Assembly: GCA_013416795.1 (NCBI GenBank)
Contig: RQSC01000518.1
Span: forward strand, 162,533-226,532
DNA length: 64,000 nt
DNA from: Prasinococcaceae sp. CCMP 1430
Lineage: Eukaryota; Prasinodermophyta; Palmophyllophyceae; Prasinococcales; Prasinococcaceae
Direction of reading: 5' to 3'
How positions within the stretch are numbered: the stretch's first letter is position 1; every line of letters begins with the position of its first letter. The position numbers and the translations under genes are program-made. A model generated the notes under the pieces. The model saw only the letters and a list, made by a program, of their open reading frames with translations. It was not told the origin of the DNA and made no database searches. Positions 35,896-64,000 of this stretch are shown here, in pieces.

Positions 35896-36326
35896 CGCCC
35901 CTCAGTCGGATCACCTCCCAGCTAGCGCCGCGGGGCGCGCGCGGCCCCTCACGTGGACACCGGGCCGGCCGCTCAGGGGAGTGCAGCCGAGATCCGAGCC
36001 GTGCCCGGATTCGGCCAGCGGGCTGGGGGCCGGGGGCCAAGGGTGAGGAGATGGGGGAGGGCACATGCGCCGTGCGCTCTGTGCCGCACCAGCCGCCCGC
36101 GCCCGCGCTCGTAACGGCCGGCGGCGGTGATAAAACGTAGGGTCTGAAAATCCAAGAAGTGATTTGCTGTGCGTTTGGTTCGGGTTCAATCGCATTACCC
36201 TAAAACATCGCCGGTGGATCATACTGTACATGTAAAGTGATGCGTGAGTGCGCGCGAAGTGCCACTCCGCGCGCCCTGTGTGTGTTCGGTGGGTGGGGGT
36301 AGCTGGGGGGGAGGACGTGCTCAAGG
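35896..36326. promoter_or_regulatory. Divergent promoter, TPR gene and SETD6-like gene
   Basis: An AT-rich island at 36,130-36,245 in GC-rich flanks contains AAAACGTAGGGTCTG and CATTACCCTAAAACATC, two opposite-facing telo-box-like words about 55 bp apart. This layout suits two divergent starts. Confidence 0.45.
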
Positions 36327-37808
36327 GTGCGATGGGCATCGAGGACAGGGGCGGGCGCAGAACGTGCGTTTGGCGCATGGCTCGAGCGCGCGGGCGCGCG
36401 CGGCCACTGGGAGGTCGGCCGCGGCGCCAACGGCCGCGGCGCGTTCGCCACCAAGGCGCTGCGCCGCGATGAGGTGTGCATTGAGGTACCAGATGCGCTG
36501 GTGTTGACGGCCGAGGCCTCAGTGGCGGGCGGCGCGCTCGCGCGCGCCGGCATTGACGAGGGCGCGGACAACCGGCGCACGGACGCGCACGCGCTCGTGC
36601 TCGCGCTCATGGCGGAGCGGTGTGCGGGCGAGGCGAGCCGATGGGCGCCATACATTGCCATGCTGCCCGCGTGCGTCGATCATATGCCGCATGAGTGGCC
36701 CGCGGAAGATCTCAGGCTGCTCGAGGGCACGTCGACGATGCGCGGCCTCCGCGGCGCCGTCGCGCCCGGTGCGGGCGGCCAGTTGCCGTCCCGGGTTGGC
36801 GACGGCTTCGACACCTTCTGCGTGCCGTTCGCGGCAAAGCACGGGGCCAGCTTCGGCTTCCCCGCGGAGCGAGACGAGCTGTACGATCTCTTTTCGTGGG
36901 CAACTGGCGTGGTTGCCTCGTACTCGTTCTCGCTGGGCGACAAACACGAGAGCATGGTGCCCGTGTGGGACATGCTCAACCACGTCAGCGGTGCGGCGAA
37001 CGTGCGTCTCAACCACGACGCCGCGCGCGGCGTGCTGCAAATGCTCGCCACTCGTGAAATCGCGAAAGGGGAAGAGTTGGTCAACTCGTTCGGTGAGCTG
37101 CCGAACGGCGAGCTGCTGCGCAGGTATGGATTCGTCGAGGAGCCCCTGCCCGCCAGCGGGGGCGGCGGCCGTGTAAGCAGGCATCCGCACGAGCGCGCGC
37201 TGCTGCGCTCCAAGGCCGTGGTGAAAGCGGCGGCGCAGCTGGCGTCCTGGCAGAACAAACGTGAGGGCACGCGCAGGCGAAGACTGGTCGTGCGGCGGGG
37301 TCTCTTCAGACCATACTTTGAGGTGCGCCAGGCGCCTGGCGGTGCCGGTGGCGTCGAGCCCGAGCCCGCGCTAGCGGCCTTCCTGTATCTCCTGCTGTGC
37401 AGCCCGACCGAATTCGAGCGCATCGCACGCGGCGGCGCCGAGGGCGCGCGTGGCAAGACCTCGGAGGCGGGAACGTGGCATGCTGTGGCTGTGGCATTGG
37501 CGGGTGCGTGTGCACGTGAGGTGGAGGCACTGACTGACCTCGACCAGGGCTTCGATCCTATCAACGACAGGCAGAGAGCGGCGTCAGTTGTCGTCCGCGC
37601 AGAGCGTGGCTGCCTGTTGGAGCTCGCGCACGCGTGCGAGGCTGGCGAGGCTGCCGCCAGGCTCCAAGCGCGAGGGTGGTGCGCACGTCGCGCTCGCAAC
37701 TTTCTGAGCTTCCGCAGGTGGGCGCTCGTGCGCAACCCCGGCGGCGAGGGCATGAAGCTTGTCCACAGGACTGATGCCGTGCGGCATCTGCGGGCCTTTC
37801 TCAAGTGA
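36327..37808 (+). CDS. SET-domain lysine methyltransferase, SETD6/Rubisco-LSMT type
   Basis: The protein is about 490 residues. The SET core runs from GRGAFATKAL through the inserted iSET region to VPVWDMLNHVSGAANVRL and ELVNSFGELPNGELLRRYGF, the last giving the NxxG and catalytic-Tyr part of the fold. The C-terminal helical substrate-binding domain follows, as in SETD6 and plastid Rubisco large-subunit methyltransferases. It transfers methyl groups from S-adenosylmethionine to a protein lysine. The frame begins at a GTG; the true start is likely an upstream exon, since GGGTGCGATG at 36,326 looks like the donors used here and GCGCAG at 36,356-36,361 could be its acceptor. Confidence 0.85.
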   Translation: MRWASRTGAGAERAFGAWLERAGARGHWEVGRGANGRGAFATKALRRDEVCIEVPDALVLTAEASVAGGALARAGIDEGADNRRTDAHALVLALMAERCAGEASRWAPYIAMLPACVDHMPHEWPAEDLRLLEGTSTMRGLRGAVAPGAGGQLPSRVGDGFDTFCVPFAAKHGASFGFPAERDELYDLFSWATGVVASYSFSLGDKHESMVPVWDMLNHVSGAANVRLNHDAARGVLQMLATREIAKGEELVNSFGELPNGELLRRYGFVEEPLPASGGGGRVSRHPHERALLRSKAVVKAAAQLASWQNKREGTRRRRLVVRRGLFRPYFEVRQAPGGAGGVEPEPALAAFLYLLLCSPTEFERIARGGAEGARGKTSEAGTWHAVAVALAGACAREVEALTDLDQGFDPINDRQRAASVVVRAERGCLLELAHACEAGEAAARLQARGWCARRARNFLSFRRWALVRNPGGEGMKLVHRTDAVRHLRAFLK

Positions 37809-38029
37809 CTTGTCTGTGGCGCGCGCCGGCGCGCGCCTTTGCGCTCGCGCAGCGACACACGCGAGCGCTTGTGCTGCCACCCGCGCGAGCATCGACCTGC
37901 GCACGCTCTCTCCTAATATGATGCTCATCTGAGCGCTACGATAAACGGCACCGACCACACAGCGGCGCTTCGCGATGAGCGCACCGCGTGCTAGAGTACG
38001 GGCGTTGCCGCGCCTCCGAATTACAGGTT

Positions 38030-40415
38030 TTAGAGGACCGAGCTCCATGGCCCCTCGATGATCTCCTCAGTGGGCTCGCCGACGGGCTCCTCCATCGTAA
38101 TGGTCTCCACGGTGGTCGACAGCTCCTCGTCCGAGTCGTAGCCGCCGCGCAGCTCCATGCGCCGCGCCTTGGTCTGGGCCTTCTCCGCCTTGCGCTCGTC
38201 GAGAACCGCGTAATACTTGCGCATGAGCTCCACGCGGTCCTCCATGAGCTCCTGGTCCTGGCCGCGCTTGATGAGCTCGTCCTCCTCATCGTAGCGCTTG
38301 GCGTTGGCCTTGGCGAGCTTGTTGACCTTCTTCTCCTCCTCGGCGGGCAGCACCGAGGGCGGGCGCGGGCGCCACAGGAATTGGAAGAAGCGGTCCTTCT
38401 GCACCTTGTACAGCTGCTGGCCGGAGAAGCTCCACATAATGAGGCCGTTCTCCATCTGGTGCACGCTGGTAACCGAGGTCGCCACGAAGCGGCCGGTGGG
38501 GTCCCAGTCGATGTCCGTGCACATGAAGTGCTCGCCGGTCGCCATGGTGTCGAGCGTATCGGCGTCGAAGAACTCGAGCTGGCCGTTGAGGCCCTTGAGG
38601 CCCGCGATGACGAGGTGCCTCCCCGCGGGCGACCAGAAGAGCGCGTTGGCCTGCTTGTTGGGGAAGGTGCCCTTCTTGACGATCTTGGGCTGGCCCTTCT
38701 CGTCGCGCATCGAGTAGATCGACACAGAGGGGCGCGCGCCGTCGCCGTGGATGACGGCGAAGCGGTGGCCCTTGGGCTCCCACGCGAAGTCGAGCACCTT
38801 GTCAGTCTTGTTCTCCGGCGTGAGCACCTCGACGGGAACGTCACGCTCGCCGGTGCGGAACAGCTCGAAGCCGGTGAACAGGGTCTTCTTCGACTTGGTG
38901 TGGCGGGTGACCACGGCCGCGAAGTACTCACCCTGCGGATGCCAGAACATTCGCAGGTCCGACACCATGAAGAGGTTCTTCGAGCGCACGTCCTTTCGGG
39001 TGGTCACGTCGAGGATGGCCACGCGCGCCGGGGTGTTGCCGTTGCCGCTTTCCTCCAGGAACATCGACATCCAGGGCTTCTTCGGCGACCAGAGGAACTC
39101 CTTGAGGCCCTCGAGCTTGAACGACTTCTTGCCCACGAGCCCCATAGACGGCGCCTCGTAGCAGCTGATCACGTCCTTGCCCATGCGCGCGAAGTACTTG
39201 TCCTGCGCGCCCTCCTCTGTGCCCGCCCACTGGAAGAGCGGCCAGCTGATCTGGCCGTTCTCAGAGCCAGAGAACTCGGCGACTGTGCCCTCGAACGTGC
39301 GCATCTTGCGCCCCGACGCCGTGTCCCACACGTTGAGCAGCACGGACGGACTGTCGCCCGCCTTCTTCGCATCGTGGCTGCTGTAGGTAACGATGTAGCC
39401 CTCGTTGGGCGAGAAGTCGATGAGGCGCACGCCCGGGTGGTTGAAGCGAGTCACGCGCTGGAACGGCACGTGGCGGCCGCCCGGCCAGCCCCACAGCGCC
39501 GCGCCCTGCCGATGCATGGTCGCGAGGAAGTAGCCGTGCGAACTCCACTGCACGAACGACTCGGTCCAGAACTCGCGCGAGAACACGGCGTCCATCTTGC
39601 CCTGCTTGTGGTCGTTCCACCCGATCTCCGTCATGTCCTGGTACCGAATGGCGAACTGGTCGCGCGCGCGGTCGTCGATGAGCCAGGCGTGCAGCGTCTC
39701 CATCGGGTTGAACGACTTCTGAGCGGGAGCCTGATACTCGTCGGGCACGCCCATGAAGTGCGCGAACGCCGACATCGGCACCACGCGGAAGGTGTGCGCC
39801 TTGTCAAGCTTGTAGCCATCCGTCTGCTGCACCGCGACCTTCGCCTCGTCGGGGGTGGTGAACTCGATGAAGCAGTAGCCCTTCGTCGATCCGGTCTCGC
39901 TGTCCTTCGGCATCACCAGGTCGCGGATGGTGCCCACCTGCGAGAAAATCTTGCGCAGCACATTGCACAGCTGTTGGGCGCGCGAGGGGCGGCGGCGACG
40001 GCGAGGCAGGGCATCGCAGGCGGGCGGAAGCGATGCGGAGCGCGGATCGAGTCAGCGCGAGAGCGCGAGAAGCGCGGCCCGATCTCTCTCTCTCCCCCGG
40101 CGGCCACCGGCTCGTGCGCGCGGCGCGTCCTCGGCGCAGCGGCGCGACGCGCCGAGCGCCTGCGCGTACTTTGTCATACTTGGTCTCCGGAATTGCCGGC
40201 ACATTGTCCACACAGATCACGCTGTCGAGTCCCTGCTCCTCCTCGATGTCCTCCTCCTCGTCGGCGCCGTCGTCGCTCGCGTAGCCGTAGTCCTCGCCTG
40301 GCTCGAGGTGCAGGAGGTCGACGTCGAACGAGCCGTCCTCGAGCTGCAGCTGCTTGAGCACCTCACGCGGGTCCTTGCCCGCCGCGGGCACGCTTCCCAC
40401 CGCAGCGTCCGCCAT
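38030..40415 (-). CDS. EIF3B: Translation initiation factor eIF3 subunit b
   Basis: Two exons: 40415-40170 and 39970-38030, with a 199-nt intron (donor GTACGC, the only exception to GTGCG/GTGCC here; acceptor CAACAG), giving 728 residues. The acidic N-terminus (DDGADEEEDIEEEQG) leads into a non-canonical RRM split by the intron: DSVICVDNVP, then GYCFIEFTTPDEAKVAV. A beta-propeller of WD-type blades follows (WGWPGGRHVPFQRV, FSPNEGYIVTYSS, FWHPQGEYFAAVV, DWDPTGRFVATSV) with the eIF3b ending WSFSGQQLYKVQKDRFFQFL. The charged C-terminal helix would bind eIF3i/g. It is a core scaffold of eIF3 on the 40S subunit. The 3' end faces SETD6. Confidence 0.97.
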
Positions 40416-40823
40416 GGCTCGCCGCGGGCGCCACCGCCCCCCGCGCGCGCTGTGCCCCAGAGCCCACCCACCCACCCTCACCCACCTTACAAACACACAC
40501 ACACACGTGGCCTTCCTCCCCCGCCTTCCCTGCGGGCAGTCGCGCGCGCGTTCGCGCGATCGCAGCGCGGCCGCGGCCGCCGACCCGCTGCCCGCTGCGC
40601 GCTGCAGCGCAGGGCTCGAGGTGCAGCCAGGCTGACGCGCGCGACGCACGCCCACGCGCGCGCACACATGGCACATGTGCGTGCGCGCCCATGCTCGTGC
40701 CCACGAACCCGGACGGCATCTCGCACGTGCCAGACCAGCACACATCCCCGCCCGCCCACCCCTTTGCACACGCGCGCGCGCTCGCGCGCTCATACGCCAC
40801 AGGCCCCGCCCCGGCCCGCGGCG
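40416..40823. promoter_or_regulatory. Divergent promoter, eIF3b and ANTH adaptor genes
   Basis: This 408-bp GC-rich interval holds a short (AC)n at 40,492-40,505 and CACATGGCACATGTGC words. It has no strong AT island and no gene. Confidence 0.4.
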
Positions 40824-43395
40824 ATGTCATCTCACGACGCAGTGAGCGCGGTCGGCGCCGCGCGCGCTGCGTTCGGCGGCCTCACCGACCGCGTGCGCGT
40901 GGGCGCCAGCCGCCTCACCCTCAAGGGCGAGGCCAAGGACCTGGCCGTGGCCGTCACCAAGGCGACCAATCACGACGTGGTGCCGCCCAAGGAGAAGCAC
41001 GTCCAGGTGCGGGCGGGCGCCCTTGCGTGGATACGACGCACGCGCGCGCGCGCGTGCCCCAGCGAGCGCCCGTCTGCGCTCGCGTTCTGACGCGCGCGCA
41101 TCCTCGGAACCTCGCAGACGCTCGTCAAGTGCCTCGCGCAGACAGGCAGCGGCATGGGCGGCGGCCGCGACTCGCCGCAGTCCTTCGCCCTGCATGAGAT
41201 AGCGCAGCGCCTGGACGCGCGCAACGACTGGCTGGTGGCCGCCAAGGCGCTCACGCTGGTGCATCGGTGCATGAGCGAGGCGCCGCGCTTCGTGCTCGAC
41301 TTCGCACGCGCGGGGCCCATGGGCGTGGACAAGGGAGCGGGAGGGCTCGGCGCGGGCTTCGCGCCCACCCCCTTCGAGATGCTCAAGGCGCTCGAGGCGT
41401 ACAAGGACGACAGCTCGGCCGAAACGCAAGACTACGTGGCGTGGATCCGCTCGCACGCCGCCTATTTGTGCACGCGCGTTGCCACGGCGAAGTTGAACGG
41501 CTGGGACGTGGCGTCGGCCGTCGGCGCCAGCGGCGGTGCCGGGTCTGGGGCCCCGCCCAACGGTCCGTGGCGCGGCCCGCAGCGCGCGCGCACTCGCACA
41601 CGCGCCCTCACGCTGACGCGCGCACGCTCACCAACGCGCGCTCTTGAATCGCCCTCCTAACGATCGCATCCCCGCAAACCCACGCGTCGCATGCGCGCTG
41701 CGACGCCGCACGCACAGTGCGCACGCAGCCCTTCGAAAAGCTCGTCGATGACCTGCCGCGGTGCCACGCACTGGTCATCAAGGCGGGGATGTGCGCACCG
41801 TCCGGCAAGGCGAAAACATCCGGCGTCGTGGGATTCGCGCTGAGCCTGGTGCTGCGCGACACCTTCCGCGCGTACCGTGTCGTGCAGGACGGCCAGGCGA
41901 CTATCGCCGACAAGTACTTCGACCTTTCGCGCGCGCAGGCCCACTCGGGCCTTGAGTGCTACAAGTCGGGCGAGCGCGCTACCAGCGCGCTGCGCGAGCT
42001 CTACGAGCGCGCCAAGCGCGAGCGAATGGAGTACGTTGGTTCCATCTCGATGCCCGCCCTCGAAGAGGCGCCTGCGAGCTTCATTGCCACCATGGAGGAG
42101 TACGCCAGGGGCGCCGCACCCGCGGCGGGAGAAGCGGAGGAGGCGCAGGGTGCGGCCGCCGGCCCCTCCCCGGGGACAGCGGGCTTCGGCAATGGCGGCG
42201 TCAAGCTGCGTGCGGGCGCCCACGGGAAGTTCGGCGCGCTGCGAAGCACCCGCGGACGCAACCTCCTGTCGAGCGCCCCGCCGGCCGGCGGGGCCAAGTC
42301 GCCGCTCGCGTTCAAAGCTTCGCCGTCGCCGGCGGCCGCGCCCGCGGCGCCCGTCACGCCCATCACCGCCGTGCCGACCGACGCCTTCGCCGCGCTGTCG
42401 GTGGCCCCGGGAACGGCCGCCTCCGACCCGTTCGCGGCCGGCAGCGGCGGCTTCGGCGCGGCGGCCGGGGCGACGGGCTCAGTGACCTCGCCCACGGCGC
42501 CCAAGGGCGCCAACGCTGCCGCGGCATTCGCCGATCCGTCGCCGTTCGGCGACGACGCGTTTGGCGGCAGCGCCTTCGGAGGGAACGGCAGCGCCGCATG
42601 TGCGTCGGCGCCTGCGCCCGTACCCGCGACCGTGCCTGCGCGCTCCGTCGCGGGTGCGCGTGCGCGATCGCGAGCGTGATCGCGCGCGCACGTGGCCCGC
42701 CTGCGCGCGAGCGCCCCTTCGCTGACGCACGCGCGAGCGCCCACACCAAAATCTGGACGCGCGCGCGCACAGCGCCTGCTGCCGCTACCACCTCGGACCC
42801 CTTCGCCGCCGCGGCATCGCCGGCTGCGCCGACCGCCGCCGCCTCGGACCCTTTCGCGGCTGCGAGCGGCGGCGCCGACCCTTTCGGCGGCAGCGCCTTC
42901 GGCGGCGGCGCTCCGGCCGAGGCCACTCCCAAGGGGCCCGCGGCGCTCACGGGGTCGACGCTGGACGCGCTCTACAGCGCCGGCGCGCAGCAGCAGATGC
43001 AGGGCTCGGCCGGCAGCGCGGGCGCGCCCTCCCCCAGCCCCTTCGGGGCGTCGACGCCGCCGCGCGCGCCCAACCTCGACGCGGCCGCGCACGGCTCGCC
43101 CTTCGGCGCGGCCGCGCCGTCCCCCTACGGCGCCCCGACGGCCGGCGATCCCTTCGGTGACGCGCCCAGCCCGTTTGTGAACGGGAGCGCCGGCGGCTCG
43201 CCCGCGGTCGCGCTCGACTCGAGCAACCCTTTCGGCCCGACGTCCACGCCGATGCGCGTCCCCGCCGCCGCGGGCGGCGGCGCCGGCACGCCATCGCCGT
43301 CCAAGCTCGCCGAGGCGGCCGCCGGCGACCCGTTCGCCGCGCTCACGTCGCTGAGCCCCACGCGCTCTGCCATGGGCCCGGGCATGCGCCGGTAG
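40824..43395 (+). CDS. AP180/CALM-type clathrin assembly protein (ANTH domain)
   Basis: Four exons: 40824-41006, 41118-41535, 41718-42599 and 42773-43395, giving 701 residues. Donors are GTGCGG, GTGCCG and GTGCGT; phases match. Exons 1-3 form an ANTH domain: AVTKATNHDVVPPKEKHVQ carries the PIP2-binding K-x9-KxKH region, then RNDWLVAAKALTLVHRCM and DYVAWIRSHAAYLCTRV. The C-terminal half is disordered Ala/Gly/Pro-rich sequence with repeated DPF (at least six, such as SDPFAA, DPFGGSAF) and one NPF, the peptide ligands of AP2 appendage and EH domains. The protein should recruit clathrin and AP2 to PIP2 membranes in endocytosis. Confidence 0.93.
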
Positions 43396-43687
43396 AGAGG
43401 CCGCAGGTGGCCTCGCGGCGCACAGGGGAAGGGGAGGTCACGGCGCGCCAGCGTCCCTCGGACGGCACGTCTGCAGCACGCACGCACGCGCGCGCGCGCA
43501 TGCGCGCGAGCGGCACGCACGCACAAACACACACACACACACACACACACACGTCCCAACACATGCCCTCGGCCAACAGACTCGCACACATGCCACTTCC
43601 TCAGTAGACCACAACGTGTTACGCCCCGCCCCATCCCGCAGCGGAGACGCACGCGGAGCGGGACGCCCGATCGCCCCGCCCGCCCCC
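43396..43687. repeat. Nuclear downstream flank with (CA)n, up to the mitochondrial junction
   Basis: It holds alternating CG/CA tracts and a (CA)12-type microsatellite at about 43,527-43,551. GC-rich nuclear-type sequence stops abruptly after CCGCCCCC at 43,687. Confidence 0.7.
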
Positions 43688-43742
43688 GAAGATGAGAGAA
43701 GTCTCACTTTGATGGAGGATGTTTTTGAAGGACGGCTTTCTT
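43688..43742 (+). repeat. Left copy of exact 55-bp direct repeat at the mitochondrial junction
   Basis: It is identical to 63,946-64,000, where the window ends, so the repeat may be longer. In the right copy the sequence continues LSU rRNA, so the left copy is LSU sequence that lacks its upstream part. Distance between copies is 20,258 bp. Confidence 0.98.
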
Positions 43743-44110
43743 TCTTTGAGGTTTTTTCTTTGGGAAGAAAGGTCTGAGAAAAGAAGGTCCAGGAAAAGTT
43801 CAAAAACCCTGTATCCGTACCTAAACCGACACTGGTGCGCGGGTCGAACAGACTCAGGCGTCGAGAGACCCATGGTTAAGGAACTCGGCAAATTCACTCC
43901 GTACGTTCGCAAGAAGGAGGGCTCCAGTCTGACTGGAGTCGCAGAAAAATGTGGCCGGGGACTGGTTATTAAAACCACAGGTCTCTGCAAAGTCGAAAGA
44001 CGACGTATAGGGACTGACGTGTGCCCAATGCCCGTCGTTGTACAGGACCGGTGTTTGCCGGAAATCGAAAACCGGGCCAATGGCTGCTGTATCACTGACA
44101 GTACTAAGGT
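43688..44110 (+). rRNA. rnl: Mitochondrial LSU rRNA piece, domains III-IV, ending at U1931
   Basis: This matches E. coli 23S from about position 1500 to 1931: AAACCGACACTGG, AAGGAACTCGGCAAA, TTATTAAAACCACAG, CGACGTATAGGGACTGACG, then helix 69 ending TACTAAGGT. After U1931 group I intron sequence starts. The upstream LSU continues from the sequence at 63,255-63,945. A poorly conserved stretch at 43,688-43,790 is an expansion in domain III. Confidence 0.93.
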
Positions 44111-44285
44111 ACACCAAAGCTGCCTTCGAACAGACCACTCTATGCGGGAAAGAATCTTCACCCGCAGGACACCAACGACCCTTTAAGGTCTAGTAGGATC
44201 CTCAGAGACTCTATGTGGTCCACTCTGAATCTTTCTTTCTTCTCCGACCACAGGAGAAAAGAGAAAAAACCAGAAAAAAGAACTA
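44111..44285 (+). ncRNA. Group I intron 5' half at LSU site 1931
   Basis: It begins directly after the exon U1931. Conserved core elements appear in order: a P-like TATGCGGGAA (44,141), a Q-like CCCGCAGGA (44,161) and an R-like CTCAGAGACTCTATGTGG (44,201). No endonuclease frame is present. The 3' half lies beyond the SSU rRNA gene at 46,437. Confidence 0.8.
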
Positions 44286-44289
44286 TTCG

Positions 44290-45732
44290 TGAAAGGACGG
44301 GTTTGATCCTGGCCCAGATGGAACGCTGGCGGTGCGTCTAACACATGCAAGTCGACTGGGCAATGCTCAGGGCGTCCGGGTGAGTAATAGACAGGAAGAC
44401 TACCCAAAGGAAAAACCAAGGGAGAGAGTCCCCCGAATGTTTGGAAAGGAAGCATCCGCCTTTGGAGGGTCCTGTTTCGGATTAGGTCGTAGGTGGTTTG
44501 TGCCCATCCTAGCCGATGATCCGTCGCTGGTATGAGAGTATGATCAGCCACACTGGAACTGAAAAGGGCTCAGACCTGAAATCAGGGCAGCAGTGAAGAA
44601 TCTTGCACACTGGGGGAAACCCTGATGCAGCGACACCGCGTGAAGGAGGTTGACAGCGCACTGTTGTAAACTTCAAGACTTTCTCCTATGATGAAGGAAA
44701 AAAAGAGAAGCCCCGGCAAACTTCGTGCCAGCAGCCGCGGTAATACGAAGGGGGCGAGTGTTCATCGGAATGACTGGGCGTGAAGGGTGTCTAGGCGGAG
44801 GTGCACTCATCGGGTTAAAGCCCTGGAAGAATCGAGGAAAGGCTCGGTGAAAGGCACACTCATGGGTCTGGGAGAGGAAAACGGAAGGCTCGAGGAAGCG
44901 GTGCAATGCAGTGATCTCGAGTCGAAGGCCAATGGGCGAAGGCTGTTTTCTGGCCCAGCACCGACGCTGACGCACGAAAGCGTGGGGAGCGAAGAGGATT
45001 AGAGACCCTCGTAGTCCACAGCTGAAAACGTTGTGCTCCATCTAAGGGTTGAAAAATTCTTAGGGATCAAGGTGTACGCCGGAGAGCACCGCCTGGGGAG
45101 TACGGCGGCAGCGCTGAAACTCAAAGGAATTGACGGGGGTCCACACAAGCAGTGGAGCATGGGGCTTAATGCGATGATACGCGCAAAACCTTACCAACCC
45201 TTCCATCACACCAGTTCTGGTGATGAGGCGTACTGCATGGCTGTCGTCAGTTCGTGATTTGTGTCCTATGATTCATTTCAGAAACGAGCGAAACCCGCCT
45301 TTTCAGATTCTTTCTGACTGAAAAGACTGCCCTCGAGAAGGGGGAGGAAGGCGCGGATGACGTCAAGTCCTTATGGTCGTTATGGGTTGGGCTGCACCTG
45401 TGCTACAATGGAAGCTTCAATAGGTGATCGAAAGGGAAACCTTGAGAGAACCCTCAAAGGCTTCCTTAGTTCGGATCGGGGGCTGCAACTCGCCCTCGTG
45501 AAGGAGGAATTGCGAGTAATCGCGGATCAGAATGCCGCGGTGAACACGTACCTGGACCTTGTACACACCGCCCGTCACACTTTGGAAATTTTTCTCAGGT
45601 GAAGTACAGACATCCTTCTTTTTCTCTTTTCGAGGAAGAAAAGAACTCTGTCCCACCCTGTCAAAAGTAACTGAAGTGAAGTCGTAACAAGGTAAGGGTA
45701 GGGGAACCTGCCCTTGGAAGATGACCAGAAAG
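44290..45732 (+). rRNA. rns: Mitochondrial SSU rRNA
   Basis: Bacterial-like 16S with all major conserved blocks: GGGTTTGATCCTGGCCCAG at the start, GTGCCAGCAGCCGCGGTAAT (530 loop), AAACTCAAAGGAATTGACGG (about 910), TTGTACACACCGCCCGTCAC (1400 region), and GTCGTAACAAGGTAAGGGTA then GGGGAACCTGCCCTTGG at the 3' end. No canonical anti-Shine-Dalgarno CCTCC follows. Ends are approximate. It sits between the two halves of the LSU 1931 intron on the same strand. Confidence 0.95.
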
Positions 45733-46150
45733 AGAGGGAAAAAACCACCCTCCACTCGGAATGAGAAAGCAAAATGGTTTTGTTTGAATCTTCAAGGATT
45801 CGTAAAAAAAACACAAGAGTCTTTGAAAGAAAAAAAAGACTGAAAACCTTAAACCTTCAGTCTTCCATCATACATGCTAACGAAAGACAGCAGGTTTTTT
45901 ATAGTACTCTTATTAAAACCAAAGAAGAAGAGGGTTCAGGAGGTTTTTTCTTCTTTTGAGTGACCGCTTTCTTGGAGGGGGCGGATGCTTCTTTCCTTCT
46001 TTGGGTTCTCCGGTCTGGTTTCCCTTGTTTGCGAGCGAGAAAACATGTGTTTGTCATAAAGGAAAGGTTTTTTTTTTTGAATCATACACACCACAGAAAA
46101 AAGAGACTCAAGTCTTTGGTCAGACTTTTCTGACCCCTTAGAGATAAAAT
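45733..46150. other. AT-rich spacer
   Basis: It has A/T homopolymer runs and no conserved gene or tRNA that I can see. I looked for 5S rRNA here without success. Confidence 0.5.
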
Positions 46151-46164
46151 TTTTTATTTAAGAA

Positions 46165-46285
46165 AGGAGGTCCATACTTGAGCATATGGAAAAAAAGACA
46201 TAGACTTGACCCTATGGGAAAGGATAGACATGGTTGACCGTACGGGAAAGGATGAATATACCTGAGCTTCAGCGAAAGGGTGTGT
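46165..46285 (+). repeat. Dispersed mitochondrial ~28-nt repeats, cluster 1 (four units)
   Basis: Degenerate units of the type ATACTTGACCGTATGGGAAAGG occur in tandem at about 28-nt spacing: CATACTTGAGCATATGG, TAGACTTGACCCTATGGGAA, GGTTGACCGTACGGGAAAGG and ATACCTGAGCTTCAGCGAAA. The same family recurs at 50,993-51,081, 51,345-51,369, 51,546-51,601, 51,708-51,797 and 63,208-63,230. Confidence 0.85.
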
Positions 46286-46299
46286 GCTCAAGGATTTCT

Positions 46300-46437
46300 C
46301 AAGAAAAATCCGTTTTCAAGGGCGGTTTTTTTTTGAGACCGCCTTTATGGAATTGGCCCCTTTAGAAAATGAAGGAGGACAGTCTTTCGGTGGAAAAACT
46401 GTCGAGATTTCAGATGGAAAAGCGCGTCCATTCAACG
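46300..46437 (+). ncRNA. Group I intron 3' half at LSU site 1931
   Basis: It ends with a G at 46,437 (the usual terminal omega-G) directly before exon A1932. A possible S/P7 strand is GGACAGTC at about 46,377-46,384, complementary to GACT of the R element near 44,208. The left limit is a guess. Confidence 0.65.
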
Positions 46438-46728
46438 AGCGAAATTCCTTGTCGCATAAGTAGCGACCCGCATGAATCACGTCACCACCGGCCAGCTGTC
46501 TCAACCATGGACTCGGTGAAATTGAAGTCCCCGTGAAGATGCGGGGTACTCACGGTAAGGCGAGAAGACCCCGTGGACCTTTACTCAAGCCCTGCATTGA
46601 GTGTCGGGACCTGTGTGCGCAGACTAGGTAGGAGCGGTATCCATAGGTTGCGGCCTAGAGGACACGCATCAGTGAGAGACTACCCACACACACCGGCGCT
46701 CTCACCCTGTGGACAGTGCATGGTGGAG

Positions 46729-46768
<40 letters not shown>

Positions 46769-46990
46769 TGTATGCAAGGTAGGCTCACCCCGGACGGCAA
46801 CCGGGCGAGTGGGGAGAATGCCCTATGCCTGCTTGACTGTAAGATGGGCACATCGAGCAGAGACGAAAGTCGATCATACTGAACCGGAGTTTCCTTGTGG
46901 AAGGGGCTTCGCTCAACGGATCAAAGGTACCCCGGGGATAACAGGCTTATACTTCCCGAGAGCTCGAATCGACGGAAGTGTTTGGCACCT
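46438..46990 (+). rRNA. rnl: Mitochondrial LSU rRNA piece, domains IV-V, 1932 to U2500
   Basis: It matches E. coli 1932-2500: AGCGAAATTCCTTGTCG at the start, AAGACCCCGTGGACCTTTAC, TTTGACTGGGGCGGTCGCCT, GGTACCCCGGGGATAACAGG, and GTGTTTGGCACCT at the end, inside the peptidyl-transferase loop. The exon stops exactly after U2500, a known group I insertion site. Confidence 0.95.
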
Positions 46991-47115
46991 CACACATCGG
47001 GGCAAAGAAGAAACCTTCTTTGATGAAGGCAGAATGCGGGAACCTTCAGAACGAACAATCCGCAGGAAAGAGTGGTCTTTCCTCAACGACTCAACGCCTT
47101 CCTTTCTTTGAAGTG
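46991..47115 (+). ncRNA. Group I intron 5' half at LSU site 2500
   Basis: It starts after exon U2500. It carries P-like GAATGCGGGAACC (about 47,032), Q-like AATCCGCAGGAAA (about 47,057) and R-like CCTCAACGACTCAACGCC (47,081). The downstream exon lies on the opposite strand 2.2 kb away, so this intron can only work in trans. The spacer 47,116-47,289 to the cob 3' end shows nothing else. Confidence 0.85.
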
Positions 47116-47289
47116 GGGTGACCCACACACAAAGAGAGAAGAGAGAGTCTTTCTTTTCTTGAAAAAGAAAAACGGTCGTCGACCCAAAGACGAACGCACA
47201 CAGAAAAAACATCCTTTCAAAAAAAAGACTTTTTTCCCTGTCTTTTCCTTTGAAGGATAAATAAAAAATATATCTACTACCTTTCTTTT

Positions 47290-48447
47290 TCATTGAACCT
47301 TCCATCGAAGAAGGAGGTTTTCAAGGCGTCCAAGGACCGGGGTCAGCACAAGGAAGTAGAAAAAGAAGTAAAAGGTCAAAATTTGACCGATTTCAAGGTA
47401 GGGGGACTCGACAGGCATCGCACCAATCCATCCAAGAAGAAGGGCGGTGGCCACAAAGGACCAGTACGCCATTGCTGCCAATGGTCGGAAGGCGTTTGAT
47501 CGAACAGATGCTGTATGAAGCCAAGGCATGAGTCCGAGGCAGACAAAGGTTGCAATCATTGCCACAACCCCAAGAAGTTTGTCTGGAATAGACCGAAGAA
47601 CAGCGTAAAAAGGAAGGACGTAGAACTCTGGAACAATGTGTGCAGGGGTACTCAAAGGGTTTGCTGGAATGTAGTTATCCGCATGCCCCAAATAGTTGGG
47701 TGCATAATGGACAAAGCAAGAGAAAATAATTGCAAAGACCAACCAGGCCACAAGGTCTTTCACATAGAAAAGAGGGTACAAAGGATGCTTGTCTGTGTGT
47801 GAGGGAACTCCCACAGGGTTGTTTGACCCATACTGGTGAAGGGCTGCAATGTGAAGGATAGAAAGTCCAGCAATCACAAAGGGAAGAAGGTAGTGAAGGC
47901 TAAAGAATCGGTTCAAGGTTGCGTTATCCACGGAAAACCCTCCCCACAGCCAGACAACAACGTCATTTCCTACAATTGGAATAACGGATGCAAGGCTGGT
48001 AATCACCGTTGCTCCCCACAGAGACATCTGCCCCCAAGGCAAGACATACCCAATAAAGGCTGTCAAAATCATCAAAAGAAGGAGGACAACCCCAAGAACC
48101 CACACGAGTTCTCGTGGACTTGTGTAAGACCCATAATAGAGTCCTCGAAGAATATGAATATAGACGACGATGAAAAACATTCCGGCTCCATTTGCGTGAA
48201 GATACCGGAGGAACCACCCTCCTTCAACATCTCGCATAATATGCTCAACGCTCGAAAAGGCAAGGTCCACGTGGGGAGTATAATGCATTGCAAGGAAGAT
48301 TCCACTTGCAATTTGGATCCCAAGGCAGATTCCTGCAAGAGATCCGAATCCCCACATATAGGTCAAATTCGAAGGGGTCGGGTAATCACTCACGTGATCA
48401 TTCACCACACTCAAGACTGGTTGAGTGATCAAGGCTGATCGACGCAT
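47290..48447 (-). CDS. cob: Apocytochrome b
   Basis: Core subunit of complex III in the inner membrane. From [19 protein letters not shown] the protein is 385 residues, the usual length. It has eight to nine hydrophobic helices, four heme-ligand His in helices B and D ([43 protein letters not shown]), the quinol-site PEW variant PEF in [18 protein letters not shown], and the WGATVITSL segment. The stop is TGA. The frame stays open 57 codons further upstream (to 48,618) with another ATG, so an N-terminal extension cannot be excluded; the family start supports 48,447. Confidence 0.97.
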
Positions 48448-48756
48448 GAAAGGAGTCGGTCGGTGGTTTTCAGTCATCGGTCCGAAGGCTCCTTTTCCAA
48501 AGGCTTCTGTGTCTTGGATGGGTGCATCCCACAAAGGGGCCATTGAAAGGGGTGCGGTAGACGCAGGAAGAAGGGTTGTTTTGTTCCGTGTTCCTGAAAG
48601 TTTCACAAAGGTTGACATAAATCATGAAAAGAATGGAAAGATCATCCCAAGAGATCTCTTTTTTTCTTCTTTTTTTGAAAGATAGAGAGACTTTTTTTTT
48701 CCTGGGAAAAGAGAGTGAGAAAGGAAGAAAGAAAAAGAAAAGATACATTTTTGCTT

Positions 48757-49170
48757 AGGGTTAAAAACTCGTAGAGAGCCTTCTTAGTACAAACTCGCTT
48801 TTCGGTGTACCCGAGACACACGGTTTGCCTATTCTGCGGTGGTCTTCCGCCAGCGCTGATATGTCGTGTCAAAGCTGGTTTCGGGCTTCAGACGCACTCA
48901 GCCCTTCTCCTTTCCGGACGTAGATTCTCTGCCTTGCAGTGGGACTACAACAGACACCCCAGAGGTCCGTTCCACTCGGTCCTCTCGTACTAGAGTGAAA
49001 GCTTCTCACATATACGTCTGGACTCAGTCTGAGTCCAGGGTGTACCCTCACGGTAGGTAGAAACCAAACTGTCTTACGACGTTCTAAACCCATCCGCGTC
49101 CTGTATTAATCGGCGAACAGCCGAACCCTTCGCACCTTCTGCAGCACGAGGACACAGGGAGACGACATCG
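48757..49170 (-). rRNA. rnl: Mitochondrial LSU rRNA piece, 2501 to 3' end
   Basis: Minus-strand sequence starts CGATGTCGTCTCCC (C2501 onward), includes GGTTTAGAACGTCGTAAGACAG, the sarcin-ricin loop AGTACGAGAGGACC, and ends near GTACTAAGAAGGCTC ... TTTTTAACC. The 3' end is approximate. It is preceded by a terminal intron G at 49,171. Its orientation is opposite to the other LSU pieces. Confidence 0.93.
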
Positions 49171-49291
49171 CGTGTGTGTGCAAGAGAAAGACTGAACCTT
49201 GCGAGAAACCCTTCCTTTATGACAAAGAAAGAAAACCCTTTGCCTATGACAGACAAAGAAAGCCCTCCATCTTTCAGATAAAGAAGGACCC
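49171..49291 (-). ncRNA. Group I intron 3' half at LSU site 2500
   Basis: Minus strand, ending with G at 49,171 before exon C2501. GGTTCAGTC near 49,193-49,201 could supply the S strand of P7, complementary to the CGACT of the R element at 47,086-47,090. The length is limited by the rps12 stop at 49,292. Confidence 0.65.
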
Positions 49292-49678
49292 TCATTTCCG
49301 ATAATTCTTTGGGTGGGGACACCCATACTTCGACCGTCCTTTCCGCCGTTCAAAGACAGGAAGAAAGTCTTCCTTTGCTCGGACGCAATGGTATTTCACT
49401 CCTGGAAGGTCCTTGACTCGACCCCCTCGAAGAAGAACGTGGGAGTGTTCCTGAAGGGTATGAAAGATCCCTGGAATATAGGCCAACACAGTCTTTCCTG
49501 TGGAAAGTTTTACCTTGGTGATCTTTCGTTGGGCCGAGTTTGGTTTCTTTGGTTTGATCACGTACACCTTCAGACAGATTCCTTTCCGAAAGGGAGACCC
49601 TTCAAAGGCTGGAACGGTAGACTTTTTCTCGGCTTTCATTCGAGGAGCAGTCTTCAAAAGTTGACGAAGAGAGGGCAT
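49292..49678 (-). CDS. rps12: Mitochondrial ribosomal protein S12
   Basis: 128 residues, from MPSLRQLLK. Conserved S12 blocks: [51 protein letters not shown] and GRSKYG. S12 sits at the decoding centre; the PNSAxRK loop is the streptomycin region. The start was chosen by family length over an upstream ATG at 49,750. TGA stop. The 3' end abuts the LSU 2500 intron half, suggesting a shared minus-strand transcript. Confidence 0.96.
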
Positions 49679-49721
49679 AGATCGAAGAGAAGATATCTGA
49701 AGTATCCTTTCTGGAAAGAAA

Positions 49722-49793
49722 CTGGAGTAGAAGGGATCGAACCTTCGCATGTCGGTACCAAAAACCGATGCCTTACCACTTGGCTATACTCCA
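49722..49793 (-). tRNA. trnQ(uug): tRNA-Gln (UUG)
   Basis: Complete cloverleaf: acceptor TGGAGTA/TACTCCA, anticodon loop TTTTGGT, T-loop GGTTCGATCCC. Genes for rps12 and cob follow on the same strand. Confidence 0.95.
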
Positions 49794-49939
49794 GTCTTTG
49801 ATTTTCTTCTGCTTCAAATGGAAAAAAATCAAAGAAAGGGTTTCCTGTATACTCAAGTATGTGTATCCTTTCCCAAAGGGCGGTCGCTGGGCAACCTTCA
49901 TAGATAGGGTTAACCGGGTTTATAGAGGAAGTCTCCTGT

Positions 49940-50012
49940 GGTGGGTATAGCTCAGTGGTTAGAGCGTCTGTTTGTGGTATAGAAAGCGCGGGTTCGATTC
50001 CCGCTATCCGCC
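49940..50012 (+). tRNA. trnH(gug): tRNA-His (GUG)
   Basis: Acceptor GTGGGTA/TATCCGC, anticodon loop TTGTGGT, T-arm GGGTTCGATTCCC. The extra G-1 (49,940) is encoded opposite discriminator C. Confidence 0.95.
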
Positions 50013-50025
50013 CTTCCTTCAAGGT

Positions 50026-50096
50026 GGTCGTGTGGTCCAGGGGTAAGACAGGAGCCTGCAAAGCTCTTAACGGCGGTTCGACTCCGCCCACGGCCT
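50026..50096 (+). tRNA. trnC(gca): tRNA-Cys (GCA)
   Basis: Acceptor GGTCGTG/CACGGCC, anticodon loop CTGCAAA, T-arm GCGGTTCGACTCCGC. It lies 13 nt after tRNA-His. Confidence 0.95.
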
Positions 50097-50293
50097 TTCT
50101 TTCGATCACCCAAACCCTCTTTCAGAAAATCCTGGTGGTCGAGAGAAAGGGTCTTCTAAAAAAAAAACATACTTGACCGCCTTTTCGGAAGCCCTTTTTT
50201 CTTGGAAAAGGTTTTTGTTTTTTCTTTCTGACAAGGAAACCCTTCGTCTGACCAACAAAGAAAATCCTTCATCTTTGTTTTTCCTTTGTTTTT

Positions 50294-50929
50294 TTGTTTA
50301 TGCCATCTACTCTTCCAATCGCTGGATTCGACCGACTTCTTTCAAAACTTTCTCCTAAGGCAGCCCAAGAACTTGCGGGTGGACCTGGTCTTACCCTTGC
50401 CTATGCTCTTCCAACCTCAGTGGACGGAATCCTTCTTCAGGATACCCACCTTCAGATTCACCTTCGACCAAGTCAGTTGAAGGTTGTTCTTCGGTACCTT
50501 CGAGATGAGGAAAGTCTTCAGTACACAACGTTGACTGCGATAAACGTGGTTGATCGACCAACTGCAGCCCTCCGGTTTGGTGTGGTCTACCAACTCCTTT
50601 CCTATACCTTGGAACACCGCCTTCAAGTGATCTGTCTTGTGAATGACCATGAGTCTCTTCCGAGTGTGGTTGATTTGTATCCGAGTGCCCAATGGTCCGA
50701 GTGTGAGAACTGGGATATGTTTGGAATCCATACCTTGGATCACCCAAACCTGTATCGCCTTCTCACAGACTATGGGTTTGAGGGCCATCCCTTGCGAAAG
50801 GATTACCCTCTCTCTGGGTTTACTGAGGTTCGATACGACGAAGACCTTCAACAAGTTGTGAGCACTCCTGTCGAACTCGCTCAGGAATATCGAGTCTTTG
50901 ATTATGCTTCTCCTTGGAAAACCTTTTGA
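50294..50929 (+). CDS. nad9: NADH dehydrogenase subunit 9
   Basis: 211 residues (30-kDa subunit of complex I, peripheral arm, matrix side). Conserved features: LKVVLRYLRDEESLQYTTLT, VVDRPTAALRFGVVYQLLSY, the C-terminal signature SECENWDMFGIHTLDHPNL, RLLTDYGFEGHPLRKDYPLS and GFTEVRYDEDLQQVV. A second ATG at 50,300 is equally possible. TGA stop. Confidence 0.97.
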   Translation: MFMPSTLPIAGFDRLLSKLSPKAAQELAGGPGLTLAYALPTSVDGILLQDTHLQIHLRPSQLKVVLRYLRDEESLQYTTLTAINVVDRPTAALRFGVVYQLLSYTLEHRLQVICLVNDHESLPSVVDLYPSAQWSECENWDMFGIHTLDHPNLYRLLTDYGFEGHPLRKDYPLSGFTEVRYDEDLQQVVSTPVELAQEYRVFDYASPWKTF

Positions 50930-50992
50930 AAGAGAGAACCCTTCCTGAAAACAACCTTCTCAAAAAGAATTCTTGTATGGTTTTTTCCAAAA

Positions 50993-51081
50993 AAAAGACA
51001 CATACTTGAAAATACGCGAAAGGATAGATATACTTGACTGTATGGGAAAGGATGAACATACTTGAGAATAAGCGAAAGGGG
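50993..51081 (+). repeat. Dispersed ~28-nt repeats, cluster 2 (three units)
   Basis: Three tandem units (ACATACTTGAAAATACGCG, ATACTTGACTGTATGGGAA, ATACTTGAGAATAAGCGAA), each followed by AGGG or AGGA, end one base before tRNA-Ser(GCU). Confidence 0.9.
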
Positions 51082-51082
51082 T

Positions 51083-51171
51083 GGAAAAGTGGCTGAGTGG
51101 ACGATAGCGCTGGTTTGCTAAATCAGTATACCGAGTCTTCGGTATCATGGGTTCGAATCCCATCTTTTCCG
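51083..51171 (+). tRNA. trnS(gcu): tRNA-Ser (GCU)
   Basis: Class II tRNA with a long variable arm (TACCGAGTCTTCGGTA). Acceptor GGAAAAG/CTTTTCC, anticodon loop TTGCTAA, T-arm TGGGTTCGAATCCCA. Confidence 0.95.
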
Positions 51172-51198
51172 GCACCCTTTCTCTTTGACAGAGAAGGC

Positions 51199-51271
51199 GG
51201 GGGTATAACTCAGTTGGTAGAGTGTTTGCTTTGCACGCAAGAAGCCATCGGTTCGAATCCGGTTATCTCCA
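51199..51271 (+). tRNA. trnA(ugc): tRNA-Ala (UGC)
   Basis: Acceptor GGGGGTA/TATCTCC with two G-U pairs, anticodon loop TTTGCAC, T-arm TCGGTTCGAATCCGG. Confidence 0.93.
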
Positions 51272-51369
51272 CTTTGGTTTCTCGGAACCGAAGGGTTTGT
51301 TTCTGAGAGACTTTTTTCAACCAAGACCTTCTTTCTCAGGGTGTACACAGGTGAGCGTCTGCGAAAAAG

Positions 51370-51441
51370 GCCCTTATGGCTCAGTGGTAGAGCGCACCCA
51401 TGGTAAGGGTGAGGCCCCGAGTTCGATCCTCGGTAAGGGCT
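51370..51441 (+). tRNA. trnT(ggu): tRNA-Thr (GGU)
   Basis: Acceptor GCCCTTA/TAAGGGC is fully paired; anticodon loop ATGGTAA; T-arm CGAGTTCGATCCTCG. A repeat-family half unit (GAGCGTCTGCGAAAAAGG) abuts the 5' end. Confidence 0.94.
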
Positions 51442-51545
51442 CCCCCTTCTTGAAATCTTTTCTTGGGTTCAAAGGTGGATCAAAAAAGTCTTTTCTTTTA
51501 AAGACAGGGTGACTGACCTTTTCTTTGGTTTCTAAGAACCGAAAA

Positions 51546-51601
51546 AGACACAGACTTGAGGGTCTGCGCGAAGGATGGACATACTTGAGCGTCTGCGAAA
51601 A
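51546..51601 (+). repeat. Dispersed ~28-nt repeats, cluster 3 (two units)
   Basis: Units ACAGACTTGAGGGTCTGCG and ACATACTTGAGCGTCTGCG, each followed by (A)AAGG, end directly before tRNA-Val. Confidence 0.9.
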
Positions 51602-51674
51602 GGGTGCTTAGCTCAGTTGGTAGAGTGTGTCCCTTACAAGGATACTGTCAGCGGTTCGAGTCCGTTAGCACCTA
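51602..51674 (+). tRNA. trnV(uac): tRNA-Val (UAC)
   Basis: Acceptor GGGTGCT/AGCACCT, anticodon loop CTTACAA, T-arm GCGGTTCGAGTCCGT. Close to bacterial tRNA-Val in layout. Confidence 0.94.
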
Positions 51675-51707
51675 CAAAAAACCTTCTTTCTCGGGAAAAA
51701 AGAAAAA

Positions 51708-51797
51708 AGACAGATTTTTGACCCTCTGGGAAAGGATGGGTATACTTGAGGGTCTGCGAGAAGGGTATCCATCCTTGAGCGTTTGCGAGAAGGGAAG
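51708..51797 (+). repeat. Dispersed ~28-nt repeats, cluster 4 (three units)
   Basis: Units GATTTTTGACCCTCTGGGAA, ATACTTGAGGGTCTGCGAGA and ATCCTTGAGCGTTTGCGAGA, spaced about 30 nt, lie between tRNA-Val and nad3. Confidence 0.9.
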
Positions 51798-51854
51798 AAG
51801 GTGAAAGAGTCTTCCCTTTTGTTTTTTCCTCTCTCCTTTTTTTTCATCTTTTTT

Positions 51855-52205
51855 ATGGATTTTGGTTCTGTTTTTGTTCTTCTCTTGATTGCCGCTGTTC
51901 TTGCCCTTGCTATTCTTGCTGCCTCCCTTCTTGTGGGTCAACCTCGACGAGCAGACATTGATACCGAAGCTGCCTATGAGTGTGGGTTCGAGCCCTTTGA
52001 TGATGCTCGAGGCCGGTTTGATATTAAGTTTTACTTGGTCGCCATTCTTTTCATTATCTTTGATTTGGAGGTTTCCTTCCTTTTCCCTTGGGCTCTTTCT
52101 CTCAGTCACACAGGAATCTTTGGGTTTTATGTGATGATGGTCTTTCTCGGTGTGCTGACCGTGGGATTCGTCTACGAGTGGACCAAAGGTGCCCTTGATT
52201 GGTGA
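51855..52205 (+). CDS. nad3: NADH dehydrogenase subunit 3
   Basis: 116 residues, complex I membrane arm. From [18 protein letters not shown]; conserved loop [20 protein letters not shown] holds the Cys of the active/deactive switch, and [20 protein letters not shown] is the second helix. The start was chosen by family alignment; the open frame runs 24 codons further upstream. TGA stop. Confidence 0.97.
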
Positions 52206-52234
52206 AGATTCTTTTTCCTTTCTTTTTTTGCTCG

Positions 52235-52306: not shown

Positions 52307-52338
52307 GATGCTATAAAAAATAGAATAAAATCAAAGAA

Positions 52339-53061: not shown

Positions 53062-53084
53062 GGGTGGGAAAAAAGAAAACCTTC

Positions 53085-62310: not shown

Positions 62311-63206
62311 TCAAGAAAAAAATCTACAAAAGATTCTTTGGTGAGAAACAAAGTGGGAGGAAGGAAAGGAAGTCCAAAGAGAAGAGTCTACCTTTGATTC
62401 AAGGCTTTTTAAAAAGGGGTTTTTCTCTGTTGTATCCTTGGTTGGAGCAGTATGAATCCATACTTTTACCCCAATTGTTCCTCGTTTGGTATAGGCAAGA
62501 GACTGGCTATATCCAATCTGGGCAGACAAAGTACTCAAGGGTGTTGATCCAAACTTTTTGACAATGGTTTGTTTTTTCCCTCCACCCTGTTTTCCGAGGG
62601 GACCAGACACTCGAAGGCGGAGGCCAAGAATACGGTTTGAAAGAAGACTATCAGACCCGATCTGCCCTTTGAAACCTTCCTGAGAAAGGGAAGGTTGGGT
62701 TTTTGTGTACAAGGTCCCCAACCGACCTGTAATTGCACGAGGTGAAATTCGATGTTCAAAGGCAAGAGCGATTCCTTTCGAAAGAAGGTCAGGGTGGGCC
62801 AAAAGGTCTTTTGCTTTATGAAATCGAAGGTCCACACGTTGGCCACTATAGGCTTCCAACCCTTGAAGGAAGACCCGAAGAGAGGGACCCCCAGAAAGAC
62901 GACCAAAAGGTCGTCCAAGAACCCCACTTCCCTTTGTTTTTCGGACGGGGTTTTGAGAACTCTCCTTCTGAGGCGGGAAAAAAAAGGAAGTATGTTGAAG
63001 AAGGGTGGTTTTTTCAGAAAGGGAAGGGTTCAACCCTTTCCAAGTCGATCCAGAGAGAGTTTCAAGACCAGTGTTTTCCAAAGGTTTCAGACCATGGAAA
63101 ACCAAAGGTTTTTGAANAAAAAAAAACCAAGGCTTGAGCCCAAAGGTGGAGGCAGGAGGAAACCCGAGTTTACAAAGGCTTCTTTCTTGGTTTTCAAAGA
63201 AAGGAT
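62311..63206 (-). CDS. rps3: Mitochondrial ribosomal protein S3, C-terminal part certain, 5' end unclear
   Basis: The C-terminal domain is clear: RILGLRLRVSGPLG, then GSTPLSTLSAQIGYSQSLAY and TKRGTIGVKVWIH. Upstream FLQGLEAYSGQRVDLRFHK then SKGIALAFEHRISP fits the middle of S3. The N-terminal KH-domain start (GQKxHPxxxRLG) was not found. The frame contains an ambiguous base at 63,117 next to a poly-A, and further upstream it runs antisense to LSU rRNA (63,255 on), so the true start must lie between, or sequence is missing. The right limit given is arbitrary. TGA stop. Confidence 0.75.
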
Positions 63207-63207
63207 T

Positions 63208-63230
63208 TTCTCTTGAGCGTATGCGATAAG
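63208..63230 (+). repeat. Dispersed repeat, single unit before LSU piece
   Basis: CTCTTGAGCGTATGCGATAAGG belongs to the family seen before tRNA-Ser, tRNA-Thr, tRNA-Val and nad3. Confidence 0.8.
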
Positions 63231-63254
63231 GGTTTTTTCTTTCTTTTCTGTGTA

Positions 63255-64000
63255 TAGGGGGTGTACGACCCGAAGCCAGGCGAGCTTTCCATCTCCAGGT
63301 TGAAGTCGAAAGTCTTTCGATGGAGGACCGAACCGGTGAATGTGGCAAAATTCTCGGATGAGGGGTGGAAAGGAGTGAAAGGCTTACCAAGCCTGGTGAT
63401 AGCTGGTTCTCCGCGAAATCTATGTAGGTAGACTAGACCCAGACTCCTTTTCGGAGGTAGAGCACTTGTTGGATGACGGGAGCCCAAACCTTTACGAAGT
63501 CCAAGAAAACTCCGAAGGCCGACAAAGGGTGGGTATCTGTACAGACTCTGGGCGCGAAGGTCCAGGGTCGAGAGGGGAAGAGCCCAGACCGTCCGTTAAG
63601 GTCCCAAAGTGTGCCCTGAGTGCGCAAGGAAGTCAGAAAACAGAGACATTCAGGAGATGGGCTTGGAAGCAGCCGTTCTATGATGATCGCGTACCAGCGC
63701 ACTGAATGAGTTTTTTGGCGCCGACCATACTCGGGACTGAAGGGCACCACCGAAACGACGGAGAACGATTCGTTCTGGTAGCGGAGCGTCCTGTGTTCCT
63801 TTGAAGGAAAAAGGATACTTTTTCTGGAGGACTCGGGAGTGAGCATGCTGACATGAGTAACGAGGCTCGGGGAGCCAATCCCCGTCGCCGTATGCGCACG
63901 GGTTCCACAGCACTGTTGACCATCTGTGGAAGACACGGATCCTAAGAAGATGAGAGAAGTCTCACTTTGATGGAGGATGTTTTTGAAGGACGGCTTTCTT
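63255..64000 (+). rRNA. rnl: Mitochondrial LSU rRNA piece, domain II into III, runs off window
   Basis: Matches E. coli from about 660: GACCCGAAGCCAGGCGAGC, TGGAGGACCGAACCGGTGAA, GATAGCTGGTTCTCCGCGAAA, CCGTTAAGGTCCCAAAG (about 1000), GGCTTGGAAGCAGCC (about 1060, L11/GTPase region), and GCTGACATGAGTAACGAGGC then CACGGGTTCCACAGC (about 1250-1330). It continues into the 43,688 repeat. LSU positions 1 to about 650 are absent from the window, so a further break lies at the 5' side. Confidence 0.93.
63946..64000 (+). repeat. Right copy of the 55-bp direct repeat
   Basis: Exact match to 43,688-43,742 in the same orientation, cut by the window end. See the left copy. Confidence 0.98.

Follow-up and report, generated by a model that had tools for sequence, protein, structure and literature searches.

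The abrupt change from chromosomal to mitochondrial DNA within the window, the whole 64,000-nucleotide stretch analysed here (C98:162533-226532, from an assembly of 24,521,569 bases in 145 contigs), is almost certainly an assembly joining error, to judge from the sequence. We consider it very probable that the junction is a chimeric assembly, in which mitochondrial pieces of a k=55 graph were attached to nuclear contigs, and that it does not record nuclear transfer. The first-pass annotation had offered two readings, a chimeric assembly or a very recent insertion of organelle DNA. The former gained strong support from a 55-bp wrap-around, a false closure through a lone N, the fuller and differently arranged mitochondrial map in a second contig (C41), 11 small mitochondrial pieces in other contigs and a complemented block of DNA; nothing emerged that specifically favours the latter.

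The junction and the end of the contig

The boundary lies exactly where it had initially been placed, with 43,687 as the last nuclear base and 43,688 as the first base that matches mitochondrial LSU rRNA exactly (Table 1). At the join, nuclear ...GCCCGCCCCC stands directly before GAAGATGAGAG..., and in the mitochondrial molecule ...CGGATCCTAA precedes GAAGATGAGAG...; the number of bases common to both sides is zero, which rules out microhomology-mediated insertion. GC content per 1-kb bin is 0.64–0.77 over 36,001–43,000 versus 0.41–0.53 over 44,001–64,000, and the frame with an ANTH domain precedes the junction, in agreement with the earlier description of GC-rich nuclear sequence downstream of an ANTH gene. 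That the mitochondrial part begins in the middle of the LSU rRNA gene, also noted then, is confirmed by C41, where the gene runs uninterrupted through the same point.

The nuclear side of the window looks ordinary in its GC content, its ANTH frame and its lack of mitochondrial 31-mers: none is common to the nuclear part of the window and the mitochondrial DNA of the window and C41. The simple (CA)n repeat upstream of the junction is a likely place for a nuclear assembly to stop. Searching the other contigs with the nuclear tail (43,100–43,687) returned only the tail itself and simple-repeat-like stretches, and no right-hand neighbour was found. On the nuclear side of the window, two further lone Ns (13041 and 33711) and two longer N runs (8360-8605 and 28624-28803) probably mark more joins of this type.

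At its end, window position 64,000, C98 repeats the 55 bases of 43,688–43,742, a feature that the first-pass annotation had missed. The start and end of the mitochondrial stretch coincide on the mitochondrial map with an overlap of exactly 55 bp, and when overlap lengths of 1–399 were tried, the suffix equalled the prefix at 55 only. A circular contig from a k=55 de Bruijn graph carries a 55-bp suffix–prefix overlap by construction. An insertion would offer no reason for such a wrap.

The resulting 20,258-bp 'circle' closes solely through the lone N at 63,117. To the left of this N, rps3 is broken mid-gene; to its right lies the region just upstream of the LSU rRNA gene. At the same places in C41, the left side continues into the remainder of rps3 and then rps19- and cox1-like frames (named by eye), and the sequence preceding the right side differs from that of the window. 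Because the lone N truncates rps3 and fuses it to the sequence ahead of the LSU rRNA gene, the circle is wrongly closed. The earlier view that every mitochondrial frame is intact over 20 kb does not hold, as rps3, a frame of 550 aa in C41, is cut at this N, and the LSU rRNA gene is cut by the ends of the stretch.

Table 1 Features of the window (coordinates in window positions) and small mitochondrial pieces in other contigs
Feature	Location	Strand	Evidence or extent
Nuclear frame with ANTH domain, no further protein match found up to the junction	41717..42676	+	Pfam PF07651, E 9e-16
Simple (CA)n repeat, ~135 bp upstream of the junction	43514..43552	.	sequence; low-complexity matches
Nuclear/mitochondrial boundary	43687..43688	.	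sequence; without N, without microhomology
55-bp end repeat, first copy, within LSU rRNA	43688..43742	+	identical to 63946-64000
Mitochondrial SSU rRNA	44291..45729	+	RF00177, full model
LSU rRNA piece b	46529..47024	+	RF02541
Group I intron match, after LSU piece b	46938-47171		RF00028
cob	47290..48618	-	Pfam cytochrome b domains
LSU rRNA piece c (rnl c), between cob and rps12	48777..49170	-	RF02541, two matches; rps12 PF00164
Stretch with four tRNAs, present in C41:25566-26465 as plain complement	50945..51844	+	900/900 bases
rps3, truncated; complete in C41 with its own ATG	62311..63116	-	Ribosomal_S3_C 33.1 bits in the C41 frame, just under the 34.1 cut-off
Lone N, false join of rps3 to the region before LSU rRNA	63117..63117	.	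sequence; C41 comparison
LSU rRNA piece a, 5' part, resumes at 43743 past the 55-bp overlap	63118..64000	+	Rfam RF02541 63110-64000; continuous in C41
55-bp end repeat, second copy, terminal in contig	63946..64000	+	C98 end; identical to 43688-43742
Mitochondrial pieces	C68, C32, C43		55 bp each, exact
Mitochondrial piece	C144		80 bp exact; match 90 bp at 98%
Mitochondrial piece	C124		92 bp; adjoins lone N
Mitochondrial piece	C11		103 bp
Mitochondrial piece	C14		132 bp
Mitochondrial piece	C120		252 bp
Two mitochondrial pieces	C75		540 bp (adjoins lone N); 584 bp exact of 588
Mitochondrial piece	C76		~2,202 bp of 2,211; compared at both ends only

Gene content and the mitochondrial map in C41

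Pfam matches above cut-off in the window identify cob, nad9, nad3, nad4L, a Sdh_cyt protein, TatC, rps12, rpl16, rpl14, rpl5, rps14, rps8, rps13 and rps11. The S3 and S4 domains score just under the cut-off, and the frame at 59,189–59,710 has no Pfam match and is assigned to rpl6 by position. ARAGORN and Rfam agree on 15 tRNAs in the window, bearing out the initial mention of mitochondrial tRNAs. A repeat of 91 bp, 81% alike, is also present within the mitochondrial DNA (46190-46280 versus 50990-51080). Absent from the frame list of the window and present in C41 as look-alikes are cox1, cox2, cox3, atp6, nad1, nad2, nad4, nad5 and nad6; among these C41 names, the Pfam check covered atp6 and nad4, and cox1–3, nad1, nad2, nad5 and nad6 were given by eye. 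The Pfam domain of nad4 is also found in nad2 and nad5.

C41 comprises 72,584 bases, with mitochondrial DNA at approximately 8,420–47,867 and nuclear DNA on both flanks; neither of its nuclear/mitochondrial borders contains an N. The mitochondrial part of the window matches C41 exactly at 20,312 of 20,313 bases, the exception being the N at 63,117. Expressed in window terms, C41 runs from 49878 to 63116 forward, through the rest-of-rps3 DNA, from 52235 back to 43688 and then through 64000-63113 reversed, followed by frames like atp6, nad1, nad6, cox3, cox2, nad2, nad4 and nad5. The join at 63,117 is absent from this map. Two pairs of segments are repeated at the ends in C41 (8420-10775 versus 25175-27532, and 36645-37979 versus 46311-47645) and fit the arrangement published for Prasinoderma coloniale, in which two single-copy regions are separated by a large inverted repeat. 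The right nuclear border (C41:46311-47867) is reached through an inverted copy of 36645-37979 (1,335 bp) and then a second copy of 44552-44775 (224 bp), beyond which the DNA is nuclear.

Within C41, all 900 bases of 25566-26465 complement window 50945-51844 in the same direction, as a plain and not a reverse complement. Such a block cannot coexist in one molecule with its correctly oriented flanks, and since it is impossible in DNA, this part of C41 was mishandled in silico. Base-swap decodings of C41 and the window (plain complement, A/C with G/T, and A/G with C/T; eight comparisons) gave the 900-bp complement as the sole real finding, the rest being small repeats in or against the block and one 105-bp match, 77% alike, within C41.

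The published P. coloniale mitochondrial genome (KF387569) is a 54,546-bp circle with 14,364-bp repeats and a GC content of ~46%, although the A+T figures in text and table conflict (54.2 versus 45.8). Three pieces make up its LSU rRNA: rnl a, rns and rnl b share a strand, and rnl c lies on the opposite one between cob and rps12 (PMC3873408). The DNA examined here agrees with this description in the order of the three LSU pieces with rns, cob and rps12; in an sdh3-type gene, mttB/TatC and nad9, found through Sdh_cyt, TatC and Complex1_30kDa; in the series rps11-rps13-rpl6-rps8-rps14-rpl5-rpl14-rpl16-rps3-rps19, with S3 and S4 below cut-off, rpl6 lacking a Pfam match and rps19 assigned by eye; and in trnL(caa), trnR(ucg), a large inverted repeat and ~46% GC (PMC3873408). 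It differs from the published dimensions in that C41 suggests repeats of ~12.8 kb and a total of ~48 kb, both estimates, and, unlike the complete circle described, the window holds only ~20 kb, wrongly closed (PMC3873408). The mitochondrial DNA of the window fits a Prasinoderma-type genome, and its gene order suggests the species.

For P. coloniale CCMP 1413, the published nuclear genome has 69.8% GC and 25.3 Mb, assembled by PacBio/NextDenovo into 22 chromosomes including complete organelle genomes (PMC7455551). Against this genome, the present assembly is similarly high in nuclear GC and close in size (24.5 Mb versus 25.3 Mb), and unlike the 22 chromosomes it consists of 145 contigs with N runs (PMC7455551). 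It is therefore a different assembly, perhaps from a different strain or species.

Organelle DNA in other contigs

A genome search with the mitochondrial DNA returned, besides C98 and C41, at least 11 exact or near-exact mitochondrial pieces in 10 contigs (Table 1). Ten of the 11 were verified base by base over their exact length and the longest, in C76, at its ends only. The search covered the whole mitochondrial map except window 63,501-63,945, C41:25,000-25,174 and C41:34,556-34,999; its prefilter may disfavour short matches, and the piece counts are lower bounds, as older insertions may be missed. Among the matches listed, no piece is shorter than 55 bp and three are exactly 55. Shorter matches do appear in the searches (44 bp at 82% and 47 bp at 98%), and so the 55-bp floor is not simply a reporting limit. 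No diverged mitochondrial copy in nuclear DNA was found among the matches listed, the remainder of which are plastid-type rRNA and tRNA stretches in C136 and C84, repeats inside mitochondrial DNA, and simple repeats.

A lone N touches two of the 11 small pieces, on one side each; the other nine have no N at either checked side. The piece in C68 starts at window position 50945, the start base of the complemented block in C41, and a boundary shared by two independent oddities is what graph-node ends would give.

C84:441017-445376 is 4,360 bp of plastid DNA in GC-rich surroundings, identical to C136:284889-289248 and bounded on the right by a lone N. Among the 145 contigs, 14 or more contain organelle-type DNA: C98 and C41, the 10 with small mitochondrial pieces, and, with plastid-type sequence, C84 and C136.

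C136 itself contains, at ~236–475 kb, at least two and perhaps three different plastid-type gene sets in one contig. Its rbcL-like matches near 248, 397 and 467 kb are 77% alike, its two LSU rRNAs are 77–93% alike in pieces, and one gene set has ndhB- and ndhG-like frames (by eye); the mixture possibly reflects a concatenation or the plastid of a second alga. A separate stretch, C76:565853-566024, matches the last part of an LSU rRNA of plastid type at 72% over 172 bp and may represent either nuclear rRNA or an ancient organelle copy.

Origin of the junction

We propose that a de Bruijn assembly, its overlap length set at 55, made pieces of the mitochondrial genome of a Prasinoderma-like green alga, one of them a wrongly closed walk of 20,258 bp. 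This walk would have been opened within the LSU rRNA gene, which would leave the same 55 bases at both ends. Scaffolding or gap-filling then probably attached the piece to the end of nuclear C98, shortly past the (CA)n repeat, and other mitochondrial and plastid pieces were probably attached to or set into nuclear contigs likewise. We infer that the overlap length was a program setting, which step made the join, and that high organelle copy number was the cause; the program responsible may have been SPAdes, SOAPdenovo or a gap closer.

Circular contigs from de Bruijn assembly overlap at their ends by exactly k bases. The stretch in C98 resembles them in that its suffix equals its prefix at one fixed length, the sole fit among those tried, and pieces in other contigs pile up at that same length; unlike a plain de Bruijn circle, it is also wrongly closed and hung on a nuclear contig. 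Some observations speak against a misjoin. Scaffold joins usually leave an N, whereas there is none at 43,687/43,688, at nine of the 11 small pieces or at either C41 nuclear border; a lone N is found at 63,117, at the other two small pieces and on one side of the C84 plastid piece. The small-piece lengths of 80–2,202 bp would also suit real insertions.

A NUMT is a nuclear insertion of mitochondrial DNA, and a genuine, very recent one could begin at 43,688 in a contig that happens to end within it. Like a NUMT, the window has mitochondrial beside nuclear DNA on one contig; the seamless join, the undiverged mitochondrial sequence and the other mitochondrial pieces between nuclear flanks would suit a recent one. 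Unlike NUMTs in general, it has no divergence from C41 over 20,312 bases, though the same would be seen in a very fresh insertion. Yet C98 has a single nuclear flank and ends 55 bp past the start of the supposed insertion, an end that an insertion does not predict, and C41, which is flanked on both sides, contains the impossible block. Nor does the stretch resemble a plausible organelle copy, as it includes the lone N, a rearrangement absent from C41, and ends that coincide to 55 bp. Among the matches listed, the pieces elsewhere show no spread of age: all 11 are undiverged across their exact cores, and diverged copies are absent. We regard a NUMT at this site as very unlikely. The broader version of this idea, in which the nucleus is now taking up mitochondrial and plastid DNA through about a dozen fresh, undiverged insertions, one of them from 43,688, and the assembly mangled the far ends only, has a similarly small chance of being right.

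Joining of nuclear and mitochondrial fragments in the tube, with the library chimera then taken as real by the assembler, would explain the seamless N-free join and the mitochondrion-to-mitochondrion rearrangement beside the nuclear border of C41. Such chimeras may have been a contributing cause; as the sole cause they are extremely improbable, leaving unexplained the exact 55-bp wrap, the three 55-bp pieces, the lone Ns and the complemented block. To read the 20,258-bp stretch as a real mitochondrial minicircle or recombination isomer is hardly credible at all. Self-closure with a 55-bp overlap is in favour of this reading, and single-copy regions could change order through the inverted repeat of C41, but the closure requires a lone N that cuts rps3, on which ground a true minicircle is rejected, and the stretch is without the cox, atp6 and most nad frames of C41. 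Isomers cover two orders around the repeat and neither the join at 63,117 nor the attachment to a chromosome; inverted-repeat isomers are rejected as the whole explanation, with the 63,117 join left over.

Attachment of mitochondrial graph pieces during assembly is the reading we prefer. Among the titles listed in a literature search on misjoined organelle DNA, none concerned this genome. An exact-k end repeat, together with pieces piling up at equal length, provides a cheap, read-free test for organelle misjoins. For the biology of this alga, the junction is to be taken as an assembly artefact and a caution on this assembly, not as a biological discovery, and counts of NUMTs or gene transfers drawn from it would mislead.
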